Origin: Victivallis vadensis
GTDB taxonomy: Bacteria; Verrucomicrobiota; Lentisphaeria; Victivallales; Victivallaceae
Direction of reading: 5' to 3'
Assembly: GCF_003096415.1 (NCBI RefSeq)
Contig: NZ_QEKH01000044.1
Coordinates: 1-32,047, forward strand
Length of the DNA: 32,047 bases
Under the pieces are notes generated by a model. That model did not search any database and was not told the origin of the DNA. It saw only the letters and a program-made list of their open reading frames with translations. Below, one piece after another: positions 24,953 to 29,748 of the stretch; position 1 is the stretch's first letter; every line of letters starts with the position of its first letter. The position numbers were made by a program, and so were the translations under genes.

Positions 24953-25654
24953 TCACCTGCGGCACAGCAGCATCGACAGATACTCTTCCGGGCGGGCGGC
25001 GATCTCTTCCGGGTCGCCGGAAACGAACTCGTCGTCCAGCCCCAGATTCGCCCCGTAAGTGACCCGGTATCCGCCCTGCGACAGCAGCCTGACCAGTTCT
25101 TCGCGGGTGCGGTAGCATTTCAGGAGCACCGAAGTTCCATGTTCCTGCAGCATCGCGGCGAGCTTTTCCGATTCCGGCGGAACGGCGGTCGGGATGATCC
25201 GCAGCACCTCCCGGTCCTCGACCAGCGCGGTCGCGGTGGCGGCGGCAAGCGCGCTCCACGAGTTCACCCCCGGAATAATCTCATATTCCAGCTCCGGCTC
25301 CATGCGCCGCAGCGCGCGCAGCAGATAGCTGCAGGTGCTGTAGGTCATCGGGTCGCCGATCGTCACGAAAGCGGCGTCCTCTCCCCGCCGGATTCCGGCC
25401 AGAATCAGCGCGGCGTGCTCGTCGATCCGCGCGAGCCGCTCCCCGAAATCTTTGGACATCGTGAATTCCAGCTCGGTGCGCTCCGCCGTAATTCCCGGCA
25501 GCGCGTCGAGAATGCGCCCGGAGATGCTCCGGTCGCTCTGCCGCGATGCGACCGAATAGATCGCCTTGACCGAACGCAATGCGTCCGCCGCTTTCAACGT
25601 GACCAGCCCGGGATCGCCCGGCCCGAGTCCGATTCCATAAAACTTACCCGCCAT
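24953..25654 (-). CDS. cobI: Precorrin-2 / cobalt-factor-II C20-methyltransferase
   Basis: SAM-dependent methyltransferase adding the C20 methyl group in corrin ring synthesis (cobalamin pathway; CobI/CbiL). The tetrapyrrole-methylase fold shows at GIGLGPGDPGLVTLKAADAL (about 7-26), VTIGDPMTYSTCSYLL in the middle and IIPGVNSWSALAAA. The GDPMxYS motif is characteristic of this step. The 233-residue length is normal. It is a lone gene: no other cob or cbi gene is in the window and no cobalamin riboswitch is visible upstream. AAGGCGG sits a few bases before the ATG. Its end is only 9 bp from the convergent oxidoreductase gene. The CobI/CbiL distinction (cobalt-free or cobalt-containing substrate) cannot be made here. 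Confidence 0.88.
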   Translation of the reverse strand: MAGKFYGIGLGPGDPGLVTLKAADALRSVKAIYSVASRQSDRSISGRILDALPGITAERTELEFTMSKDFGERLARIDEHAALILAGIRRGEDAAFVTIGDPMTYSTCSYLLRALRRMEPELEYEIIPGVNSWSALAAATATALVEDREVLRIIPTAVPPESEKLAAMLQEHGTSVLLKCYRTREELVRLLSQGGYRVTYGANLGLDDEFVSGDPEEIAARPEEYLSMLLCRR

Positions 25655-25867
25655 ATTCCGCCTTTTCCAGCTAAAGATTACAGTTCAATCCTCATACGGG
25701 AAATATGCCGTTTCAATCCGGTAAAATCAACCTTGCAATCAGCGATCCGCCGAAAAAAAGCAAAATAATTTCTCCTCTTACGTTGCTTTATTGATAAATA
25801 ACGTTATCTTATGGATAACAATAAAAACAATTTTCACAGCATATCGAGAATCAGGGAGAACAGCATC

Positions 25868-27103
25868 ATGTCCAATCATCTGGTCTTTTCCGTCTGGCTG
25901 ATCATGCTCGGGGCGGCCCTCCAATGGGGAAACATCTGGTGGACCTGCGGAGTGATCGCATGCGGCCTATTCACACTCCTCCTCCGGCGCCGCGGCAGAA
26001 CCTCAAACACATTGCCGGAATACGCCGCTCAGATCCCCGAAGAGTTGTTTTCCGTCCCGCCCCTGATCGCCTCAGGGCCATTTCTGGAGCAGAATGAACT
26101 GGATGGACAACTGCAGCAGGCGGAAAACCGCCTCCGACACTGGGAAAGCCACTCCCGCAACTTTGCTTTTCTTATCGCGGTGTCGGGAATTGCGGCAGTC
26201 GCCGTAACCGCATGGCTGACCAGTTGCCGCCAATTATTCACGGCCCTGCTCCTCTGGGGAAGTCTGGAAAGCATTCTCCTGCTCTTCTGTCTTGGCGTGA
26301 AACGGTATCTCCGAAATCAGTTGAAACACCGGAGCATCGACCTGCAATCAACACGCGCCCAATGGCTGCTCAACCATCCCCGTCCGCCTCTTTGTCTTGA
26401 CCGGCAGCAGGACCGCGACCACTTCTGCCGTTTCTACCCCGGCAAGGCCGAAGCACGCTGGGCCTGTATTCTGACCGAATTGGCCGGAATCGATTTTCTG
26501 GTTTATCCTCAGGATTCACTCCGGCTGGCCGCCGGGGGCGGTTATGCACAATTCCTGCAGCAGACGGCACGGCATGGCTTGAAAATCACCGGAACCACCT
26601 TTCATGAAGTCATTCGCAGTATTCTCGGCCAATCCCCTTCCGCCCTGCCGGAAGATCTCGCAGTCGCCGGAACAGCCTCCGCACCTCCCTTATCCACTTT
26701 TCTGGTTAAAGTCCGGAAAAATATGCTTCGCAAAAACTGGAAAAGCCTTTCCGAAGAGCTGCTGCTTCAGGAGATTCAGCAACGGCCGGAGATGTCGGTA
26801 CGGCTGTTCTGCTCTTACTGGCCGACCCGGGAACAAGCCGTAATTGCACTGGCAATCCGGGAACTGGCGATTCAGAATATGGACCGCCCGGCAACAATGA
26901 TGTGCTATCCCAACGATCCCGCACCATTGCTGCTTTACGTCGACCTCGACTCACTGGAGTCCGCTGAATTCATCCTCGGCATGGAGGAAAAGTTCCACAT
27001 CAGAATCACCGATGCCGAGGCGGAAAATCTGCTTTCGGGCAGCTTTGCCGAGATTGTGGAGTATGTCCAGCGCAAACAGACCGAACCAATGGAAAAATCC
27101 TGA
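25868..27103 (+). CDS. Membrane protein with a C-terminal acyl-carrier-protein-like domain
   Basis: I recognise no family for the whole 411-residue protein. Two pairs of hydrophobic helices lie near residues 5-38 and 98-150, followed by a soluble middle region. The last ~60 residues read like an acyl carrier protein: LYVDLDSLESAEFILGMEEK, then FHIRITDAEAENLLSGSFAE and IVEYVQRK. Ser362 sits in D-S-L, where carrier proteins bear phosphopantetheine. The usual Gly two residues earlier is replaced, so modification is not certain. The ATG at 25868 follows AGGGAG by 9 bases; an ATG at 25811 lacks a site. Base composition is more AT-rich than its neighbours. A lipid- or polyketide-related role anchored at the membrane is conceivable but unproven. 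Confidence 0.7.
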   Translation: MSNHLVFSVWLIMLGAALQWGNIWWTCGVIACGLFTLLLRRRGRTSNTLPEYAAQIPEELFSVPPLIASGPFLEQNELDGQLQQAENRLRHWESHSRNFAFLIAVSGIAAVAVTAWLTSCRQLFTALLLWGSLESILLLFCLGVKRYLRNQLKHRSIDLQSTRAQWLLNHPRPPLCLDRQQDRDHFCRFYPGKAEARWACILTELAGIDFLVYPQDSLRLAAGGGYAQFLQQTARHGLKITGTTFHEVIRSILGQSPSALPEDLAVAGTASAPPLSTFLVKVRKNMLRKNWKSLSEELLLQEIQQRPEMSVRLFCSYWPTREQAVIALAIRELAIQNMDRPATMMCYPNDPAPLLLYVDLDSLESAEFILGMEEKFHIRITDAEAENLLSGSFAEIVEYVQRKQTEPMEKS

Positions 27104-27179: not shown

Positions 27180-27470
27180 ATGGATATTCTGCCAAGGATC
27201 ATCGGCTCGCAAAGCCGCGCGGAGATTCTGAGGCTGCTTTTCACGCCGGATGCTCCGACCTTTTATTTGCGCAAGCTGGCGCGTGAAGCGGGGCTGAGCG
27301 CCCCGGTCATCCATCGGGAGCTGCAGAGCCTGCTGGAACTGGAGCTGGTCCGCCAGAATTCCGACGGAAACCGGGTCAACTTTTCCGCCAATACCGGCCA
27401 TTTGCTCTATCCCGTGCTGTGTGAGCTGGTCAGGCTGGCCGGACAGATCCCCAAAAGCGGTTCCGCCTAG
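27180..27470 (+). CDS. Small winged-helix DNA-binding protein (ArsR-like)
   Basis: A 96-residue protein that is essentially one winged helix: IIGSQSRAEILRLLFTPDAP, then FYLRKLAREAGLSAPVIHRE and LQSLLELELVRQNSDGNRV. This arrangement resembles the small winged-helix regulators often encoded beside MNT-type nucleotidyltransferases, but no such partner is adjacent. It has no visible metal-binding cysteines. The ATG at 27180 has AAGGAG eight bases upstream. It follows the ACP-like membrane gene by 76 bp on the same strand and may be co-transcribed. Its stop codon overlaps that of the convergent gene. Confidence 0.82.
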   Translation: MDILPRIIGSQSRAEILRLLFTPDAPTFYLRKLAREAGLSAPVIHRELQSLLELELVRQNSDGNRVNFSANTGHLLYPVLCELVRLAGQIPKSGSA

Positions 27471-28033
27471 AACAGCTCCTTCCGCCGTTTGCGCACTTCG
27501 GCCACGGCGATATCGGTGAGTTTCAGCAACGCGTTCTGCTGTTCCTCGCGCGACAGGGCGAGGAAACTTCCCATCACCCGGTTTTCCAGCGGAGTCAGGC
27601 TTTCAAAGGCGGTCGGAGCCGTTTCCGCCCCCGCCATCTCCTCCATCCACGCGATAACCTTCTTCTGCTCCGGTTCGGCGAGGACGTCGAATTCGTCCAG
27701 CAATACCTTCTGGTCGCTGAACATCTCCACCAGCTCGTGATGGCGGCGATAAGCGGGGCCGACGCGCGGCGGCGGCTCATGGGCCGGTTCAGGGCCGACC
27801 AGATAGGGCTTCAGCGCCGGGTAGATCTTGTCCCAGGTTTCCGCCCGCGCCCGGCGGGTCTTTTTGGAAATGAAGCGGCGCAGCAATTCGATGCGCACGC
27901 CGGTCACACGCGACAACTCATTCAAAGACAGAGCATTGGCGCAGCTCTCAAACGCATTGGCCACTTCATCGTTCAACTTCTGGATCGGGGCGGGCTCTTT
28001 GCGCCCGGTTTCTTTGGTCTGGTTCTCTTTCAT
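27467..28033 (-). CDS. Hypothetical protein with a helix-turn-helix-like N-terminus
   Basis: A 188-residue, highly charged protein. Residues about 33-75 (NALSLNELSRVTGVRIELLR, then RFISKKTRRARAETWDKIYP) look like a helix-turn-helix of the lambda-repressor type. The rest is predicted helical with many Glu, Arg and Lys residues and no recognised domain. It follows the lipoprotein gene on the same strand with a 5-bp gap and without a strong Shine-Dalgarno sequence, so it is probably translationally coupled. Function unknown; a regulator is the simplest reading. Confidence 0.7.
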   Translation of the reverse strand: MKENQTKETGRKEPAPIQKLNDEVANAFESCANALSLNELSRVTGVRIELLRRFISKKTRRARAETWDKIYPALKPYLVGPEPAHEPPPRVGPAYRRHHELVEMFSDQKVLLDEFDVLAEPEQKKVIAWMEEMAGAETAPTAFESLTPLENRVMGSFLALSREEQQNALLKLTDIAVAEVRKRRKELF

Positions 28034-28038
28034 CGTAT

Positions 28039-29748
28039 CTAATCCAATTCGAATTGCTGATCGAGGGCGGCCGCCTTCTGCATCAGCTGTTTGAATTCCG
28101 GTTCGGTATAGTGGTAACGGGTGTGCAGATAGCTGACCACCCGGCGGCAGTTTTCCGGATTCTCAAGCTCCAGCGTCTCGACGGAACCGTCGACCAGAAT
28201 CACGTTGACCGCATCGGCGTGATTGAACGGCCAGTCGATCACCAGCGGCAGCTTCGGATTCGATTTCCGGTTGAATCCGCCGAAATAAACATAGGAACAG
28301 TTGTCAAAGGTAAAACTTTCGGTATCAGCCGCCGCCTCATCCTCCGTCCCCGGACAGATCAGCGCGGAAGGCGCAATCAGCCCGGCTTCCAGCAGCGTTT
28401 TCAGCCCGGCAATCCCCTCCTCCGCCGGGAAACGGCCATCATGTTCCGCCGCATATTTCTCCAGTGCGTCCGCCAGCGGCTTGAGCTGAAGACGGCACTT
28501 CTGCTGTGCGGCCTTGTCATCAAGCATTTCCCGGTGCTCAGTCAAATAGGGCGAAACCAGTGTGATCAGCCCCACCGCCGGGATCAGCGCCTGCTCGGCG
28601 AACTCCACCTGATTCAGATCCCAGTTGCTGCGGCTCACCGTCAGCTTGCCGTCCGGCTCGTTGCGGAACACGGTCAGCTCCTGCTGGTCAAGCTCCGCCA
28701 ATGCCGCCGCCGATTCGGCTCCGGTCAGGGAAGCAAGCTCATTCCGGAGCAGCGCGAGCCCGCCGCCGGAATACAGGAAGCCGCTGCCGCTTTCCGGCAG
28801 CCCTGCGGCCAATTTGCGGAATTCCGGCGTATCGGCAAGGCGCGGCGCGCTCTCATCCGCCAGATAGTCGAGCATATCCTGACTCGAATAGAGGTAGAGC
28901 CGGCCGTCGTCGAAATGCAACTCCGGGCGCCAACTGATGCCGAACCGGTTCAAAGGCCCGAAAACGACCCGGTTCTCCCCGCTCACGGTTCCCGGCACCA
29001 GCTGGGCGACTCCGGCCAGATAGCGGAAAAGCCGGCCGCCGGCATCGGGCAGCGTAACCAGCAGCCGTATGCCTTCGAGCGTATCGGCGGAAGCATCCCC
29101 GTCCGCGGTCACCAGAACGCTCCATTCACCGGAAATTCCGGCCAGCAGCGGCTCCAGCGGCGTTTTGAAGATGGAATCGGCCAGTTCGTCCCCCTGCCGG
29201 GAAGTCGTCTCAAGCTGCTTCAGCGCCCGGGCCAGCACCACCGGCTCCAGTGTCAGGTCGGCAGCGAACACGGTATCGGCCGGCAGCGCCCGGAACTCCT
29301 CCCGGAGCGGCCGGTTTCCGCTGCCGGTCAGCCCCCACAGAAATCCCTGCGGTTCACGCGGCAGCGCCAGGAACATACGGTTTTCAAAGAGACCGGACTC
29401 CCCTTCCAACGGTACGGAACTGGCGCCGCAGGCGGCAAGTTCGTCAACCCCGGCCAATTTCCAAGCCAGCGCAAACGCGGCGCTGAACTGCTGGAGTTCG
29501 CGCACGAACTCCGGCGGCAACTGGCTGTCCGGCGACGCCAGCGAAAGCTCCAGGCCGTGGAACAGCCGTTCCAGCGATGCGAACAGCCGCACCGGATTTG
29601 AAATCTTATAGTAAGTCCCCCCGACCTGAATGCGGCGGGCGGCCTGCTCATACGGCTTCGCCGCTTCCGATGTTGCGGAACTCCGGCACCCGCCGGCGAG
29701 CCACAGCATGGAACCGGCTGCGGCAACGGCTAAAATTCGAGTCAACAT
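28039..29748 (-). CDS. Lipoprotein with a C-terminal H-x9-DG motif
   Basis: A 569-residue secreted protein with a lipoprotein signal peptide: LAVAAAGSMLWLAGGC, lipobox LAGGC with Cys21 the lipidated residue. The long middle (residues about 40-390) is unrecognised and rich in Leu, Ala and Glu. The final ~150 residues resemble the body of PVC pseudopilin-like proteins: a helix (LKPLADALEKYAAEHDGRFP), then ICPGT and SYVYFGGFNRK. It ends with FNHADAVNVILVDGSVETLE, which contains His, nine residues, then Asp-Gly. It therefore looks like a pilin-type globular domain on a lipoprotein instead of a prepilin helix. A GGGGG run before the ATG is a weak ribosome binding site. Confidence 0.75.
   Translation of the reverse strand: MLTRILAVAAAGSMLWLAGGCRSSATSEAAKPYEQAARRIQVGGTYYKISNPVRLFASLERLFHGLELSLASPDSQLPPEFVRELQQFSAAFALAWKLAGVDELAACGASSVPLEGESGLFENRMFLALPREPQGFLWGLTGSGNRPLREEFRALPADTVFAADLTLEPVVLARALKQLETTSRQGDELADSIFKTPLEPLLAGISGEWSVLVTADGDASADTLEGIRLLVTLPDAGGRLFRYLAGVAQLVPGTVSGENRVVFGPLNRFGISWRPELHFDDGRLYLYSSQDMLDYLADESAPRLADTPEFRKLAAGLPESGSGFLYSGGGLALLRNELASLTGAESAAALAELDQQELTVFRNEPDGKLTVSRSNWDLNQVEFAEQALIPAVGLITLVSPYLTEHREMLDDKAAQQKCRLQLKPLADALEKYAAEHDGRFPAEEGIAGLKTLLEAGLIAPSALICPGTEDEAAADTESFTFDNCSYVYFGGFNRKSNPKLPLVIDWPFNHADAVNVILVDGSVETLELENPENCRRVVSYLHTRYHYTEPEFKQLMQKAAALDQQFELD

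Follow-up and report, generated by a model that had tools for sequence, protein, structure and literature searches.

As a rule, carrier proteins either move freely in the cytosol or belong to synthases. Their fold can also act at a membrane protein: in mycobacteria AcpM is reported to be bound to MmpL5 (PMC11633376, PMC12346298). Membrane proteins can also bind small repressors, as SdpI does with SdpR in Bacillus subtilis (PMC11995493). In this study, we compare these systems, together with acyl carrier protein (ACP) AcpP (PF00550, TIGR00517) and the MNT-type HTH-nucleotidyltransferases (PADLOC PDC-M05A), with a locus of Victivallis vadensis lying in a 32,047-nucleotide stretch of contig NZ_QEKH01000044.1 (hereafter the window). 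The locus encodes a membrane protein with four helices and, toward its C-terminus, two ACP-like domains (25868-27103), and a winged-helix protein that is probably its repressor; these and all other features of the window are on the plus strand unless stated. As in AcpM-MmpL5, an ACP fold would work on the cytosolic side of a membrane protein; yet AcpM is described as a free-standing protein that binds a transporter (PMC11633376, PMC12346298), whereas the ACP fold in the window is a covalent part of a small membrane protein. It resembles SdpI/SdpR in pairing a polytopic membrane protein with a small, here probable, repressor, but SdpI spans the membrane with six helices, is not described as having an ACP domain, and differs in both toxin and sequence family (PMC11995493). 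With AcpP the second domain shares the fold, a helix II DSL motif whose serine holds the Ser36 position, an acidic helix II and an IxIxDxxAE helix III region; unlike AcpP, it is fused to four transmembrane helices behind a degenerate copy of itself, carries a YPNDP loop between helices I and II, scores under the curated cut-offs, and has relatives that vary at the serine.

A duplicated ACP fold in a membrane protein

Read from its first ATG, the membrane-protein gene spans 25811-27103 and encodes 430 aa. A start at ATG 25868 appears likelier, since ATG 25811 falls within a conserved operator palindrome; with an RBS-like AGGGAGA at 25853-25859 and the agreeing N-termini of the homologues, the protein is probably 411 aa long. 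Its long-form homologues are L004, L005, L006, and L039/L064. Residue numbers here follow the 430-aa frame, in which Ser362 of an earlier note on this DNA becomes Ser381. That note had remarked that the gene differs from its neighbors in base composition, and the open reading frame indeed has 55.1% GC (GC3 64%) against 60.6-66.4% (GC3 75-87%) in the neighbors measured. The four membrane helices it had read are likewise supported by hydropathy. Transmembrane helices 1 and 2, followed by RRRGR (25877-25984), are also helical in the AlphaFold2 model, with low to moderate confidence there; helices 3 and 4 are followed by KRYLRNQLKHR (26162-26299). By the positive-inside rule Arg/Lys-rich segments mark the cytosolic side, so the loop after helix 2 and the C-terminal half of the protein are predicted to be cytosolic. 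The full-length model is of moderate confidence only (pTM 0.44).

The second ACP-like domain covers residues 325-425 (26783-27085). AlphaFold2 gives a confident ACP fold for residues 325-430 (pLDDT 89.5, pTM 0.83), complete with helix I, the YPNDP loop, DSL, and the acidic helix II. A profile built from the C-terminal 101 residues of five homologues has ACPs as its top PDB matches (E 3.5e-7), aligning DSL to DSL, and a similar profile retrieves short acpP-like genes from many related genomes, those read out being AcpP. The NCBIfam ACP models match residues 377-423 at E 4.6e-6 to 1e-5, under their curated cut-offs (TIGR00517: 25.7 bits vs. 70.45), and the PP-binding family PF00550 is also sub-threshold (E 0.064, 14.0 bits vs. 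20.8). The Foldseek matches shown are ACPs or ACP-containing complexes (probability 0.99-1.00, TMt up to 0.85), with E-values of 0.016 at best, as is usual for a small helical domain. VIA alignments to ACPs reach Z 10.7 over 79 residues at 1.9 Å, and the AcpM/MmpL5 chain 9mx0_B is among the best fold matches (Z 10.2). The four-helix ACP fold is thus recovered by AlphaFold2, Foldseek, and VIA, and the NCBIfam matches, the PDB profile search, and the predicted fold rule out a chance resemblance. The carrier-protein pattern that the earlier note had seen at the C-terminus, including DSLESAEFILGMEEKF..ITDAEAE, is therefore confirmed, ACPs being the best solved-structure matches by both sequence and fold; the domain is larger than had been noted, its helix I starting at about 26783. 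DUF1493 is another ACP-like family; it was absent from the Pfam matches up to E 1 among the proteins scanned, and no link between it and ACP was found in the literature searched. That the tail might be degenerating or ACP-like by chance, and without function, would suit a family so variable and patchy; we hold this to be very improbable given the confident fold, the intact frames, the conserved operator, and a core conserved across two bacterial families at less than 40% full-length identity.

Ahead of this domain lies a degenerate first repeat (residues ~188-275; 26372-26635), which the earlier note overlooked, as it did the operator/repressor pairing. A repeat-1 profile (A7, drawn from five homologues) aligns to repeat-2 profiles in hhalign with a probability of 93% and E 2e-7 to 3e-7, and the helix order in the AlphaFold2 model is similar. 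Its YPQD motif occupies the place of YPND in the second domain; it has no carrier serine. A relative in another genome (L046:1174-2274, G056:C195) runs off its contig end and consists of two tandem units, each a transmembrane pair with an ACP-like domain, in both of which Asp replaces the carrier serine. Away from L002, the main acpP locus, there is another and divergent ACP gene (L003:1384-1653, G000:C12), which adjoins acyltransferase-like and ketosynthase-like genes.

The carrier serine and its conservation

The codon of Ser381 lies at 26951-26953. As the earlier note had proposed, this residue holds the carrier position: the profile alignment to ACPs of known structure sets it against Ser36, and in the model helix II begins one residue later, as it does after Ser36 in AcpP. 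The same note had asked whether the serine is conserved, and here the answer is divided. Four of the five long forms have it, in the context DSL (window) or DSM (G002, G003, and G139), and the fifth has Thr (ETI, G026); wider relatives have Cys (G427), Gly (G375), or Asp (G056), and the short forms (~240 aa) show no clear equivalent. The serine is thus not conserved among homologues. Where it varies, the Pro-x-Asp motif that separates helices I and II persists (W13, A22, P43, and D45 are the invariant columns of alignment A5), and the long forms also retain the acidic helix II (E386, F387, E392, and F395). In a domain tree, built from a short alignment and with many weak forks, the window protein groups with that of G026, its nearest relative (support 90/83), which makes a loss of the serine on the G026 branch probable. 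The exchange of DSL for ETI would be conservative, keeping the helix N-cap but not the serine. Given this variation, and above all ETI in G026, attachment at this position would not appear essential across the family.

Since relatives retain the fold and mostly lose the serine to which an acyl chain would be attached, the domain is probably an adapter or sensor and not a true carrier. The reading that we favor, at about even chances, is that of an ACP-derived, membrane-tethered docking or sensing domain which, with its paired repressor, forms a self-regulated two-gene operon. Two observations run against it. No gene for a partner enzyme adjoins the membrane-protein gene. Moreover, the serine, its Asp-Ser-Leu/Met context, and the acidic helix II occur in all four homologues that come with a probable repressor, as would be expected of a true carrier (a correlation drawn from only five long forms, which stand for about three separate lineages). 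AcpS would then phosphopantetheinylate Ser381, and a membrane enzyme would be offered the acyl group that the domain carries. This role is possible because the residues matching D35, S36, L37, E41, E47, E48, and D56 of Escherichia coli AcpP are kept, the genome has one ACPS-family phosphopantetheinyl transferase, and all four proteins partnered by a winged helix have the serine that aligns with Ser36. Yet the residues listed above for the other relatives, Thr in G026 included, do not fit a carrier, the Gly usually found two residues before Asp-Ser is lost, and neither an acyl-activating nor an acyl-transferring enzyme is encoded in the operon. We therefore consider a true carrier distinctly less probable than a docking or sensing domain, although it is the strongest of the rivals. 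The earlier suggestion that the protein presents an acyl group at the membrane stands as a possibility for this protein, but, the serine being split among homologues, not as a trait that the family conserves: Ser381 may bear a covalent acyl chain here, and the family's function would not depend on one.

The winged-helix gene and the palindromic operator

The second gene (27180-27470) encodes a stand-alone winged-helix protein of 96 aa, a probable repressor, whose HTH_IclR match exceeds the Pfam cut-off. It is co-conserved with the long-form gene, adjoining it in four of the five long-form genomes (G000, G002, G003, and G139); G026 has the long form without it. Across these genomes the winged helix is 63-71% identical, against 28-35% for the four-helix forms of the membrane protein. 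The sole other winged-helix match among 11 genomes lies within the HTH-nucleotidyltransferase of G007, to which the window protein is 53% identical. The window's winged helix is of the same family as those of the MNT-type HTH-nucleotidyltransferases (PDC-M05A, E 4.3e-14); it stands alone, in contrast, ending at 96 aa, and the nucleotidyltransferase which follows the winged helix in MNT-HEPN systems is absent behind it. In G007 itself (L086:753-1749, G007:C99) the HTH-nucleotidyltransferase gene overlaps a gene for 149 aa that is HEPN-like by eye and has no Pfam match, possibly an MNT-type toxin-antitoxin pair. Two small DNA-binding neighbors had been reported for the membrane-protein gene. The winged helix is real and linked; the other, a gene for 188 aa at 27470-28033 (minus strand), is rejected as a part of the system and is an unrelated neighbor, since it occurs in all 11 genomes with or without the operon. 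It is adjoined by a gene for a putative lipoprotein of 569 aa (28039-29748, minus strand).

A palindromic operator, GATAAATAACGTTATCTTA, lies over the operon start (25793-25811), followed by a further half-site GATAAC (25814-25819). The same site, GATAAC-n4-GTTATCTTA, precedes the membrane-protein gene in G002, G003, and G139, usually with a third half-site; the left arm in the window is GATAAA. A second copy in G139 (L064:4330-4440) precedes the winged-helix gene, and the two genes may be under separate control there. With at most one mismatch the palindrome occurs at these five places only in the 11 genomes, with zero control matches, and it is absent from G026, which is without the winged-helix gene. 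A looser search for a larger regulon gave only two-mismatch sites, at background level. As the pattern was written from the very sites counted, what carries weight is that it is conserved between bacterial families, is missing from G026, and has no other copies. A palindrome over the operon start in all four winged-helix genomes, with no near-exact copies elsewhere in the 11 searched, suggests that the winged-helix protein probably represses its own operon. A scan of 25650-25950 found no sigma-70-type promoter, and the promoter position is thus taken from the conserved operator alone.

Conserved gene linkage and a dedicated palindrome, with a predicted repressor, also invite the comparison with SdpI/SdpR. 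On that account, the locus would be an immunity or stress cassette in which the membrane protein senses or neutralizes a membrane-active agent from outside and, by sequestering the repressor, induces the operon, comparable to the binding of SdpR by membrane-bound SdpI (PMC11995493). The pairing of a membrane protein with an ArsR-type winged helix and its own operator fits, as do a weak match to the SdpR model (E 0.065), a patchy distribution (5 of 198 genomes of the class), different flanks, and a fast-evolving membrane protein. We nonetheless regard it as unlikely: there is no Pfam SdpI match, the family being absent among matches at E up to 1 (although a distant homology is possible), a toxin gene was not found alongside, and a cassette of this kind by itself leaves the ACP fold unexplained. 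In the favored docking or sensing reading the fold has a part. The first gene would yield an inner-membrane protein of four helices with two cytosolic ACP-fold domains, the first degenerate and the second close to a true ACP, with a serine at the 4'-phosphopantetheine position; the second gene would yield a small winged-helix protein repressing the operon through the GATAAC/GTTATC operator. The acidic helix II would bind either an ACP-recognizing partner, such as an enzyme of fatty-acid or phospholipid metabolism, or the repressor itself, and operon expression would change with the status of the membrane or of acyl groups. Repression, partner binding, and the signal are what we infer here; the ACP fold, repeat, topology pattern, gene linkage, and conserved operator were computed directly.

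Distribution and biological meaning

Beyond the five long forms in the class, no others occur among the 388 genomes sampled in the phylum, and the flanking genes differ in each genome; with so few carriers of the gene and such changing flanks, the locus appears to be a sporadic accessory cassette. No relative was found on the viral contigs searched, and, PHROG matches being weak only, a phage gene is rejected; so is a known defense protein, PADLOC giving no match for the membrane protein. Comparison with the empty site of G001 is uninformative, both flanking genes being on separate contigs there. The short-form neighbors compared have no common partner. There is a four-base overlap between one short-form gene (L120:3665-5838, G184:C3) and the stop of a Sel1-repeat gene, another short-form gene (L122) lies near a gene that is SUKH-like by eye, and both surroundings are possibly immunity-type neighborhoods.

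Tentatively, and with considerable doubt, we suggest that these proteins form an undescribed family of the phylum, in which a duplicated ACP has been repurposed to sense acyl or lipid state from a fixed place on the cytosolic side of the membrane and controls its own small repressor within a cassette of two genes; in the long-form members a loaded phosphopantetheine may even be the signal. If this is true, an ACP fold that is duplicated, fixed to the membrane, and has mostly discarded its attachment serine would represent a carrier turned adapter or sensor, and, with a dedicated operator beside it, the regulatory side can be tested directly.
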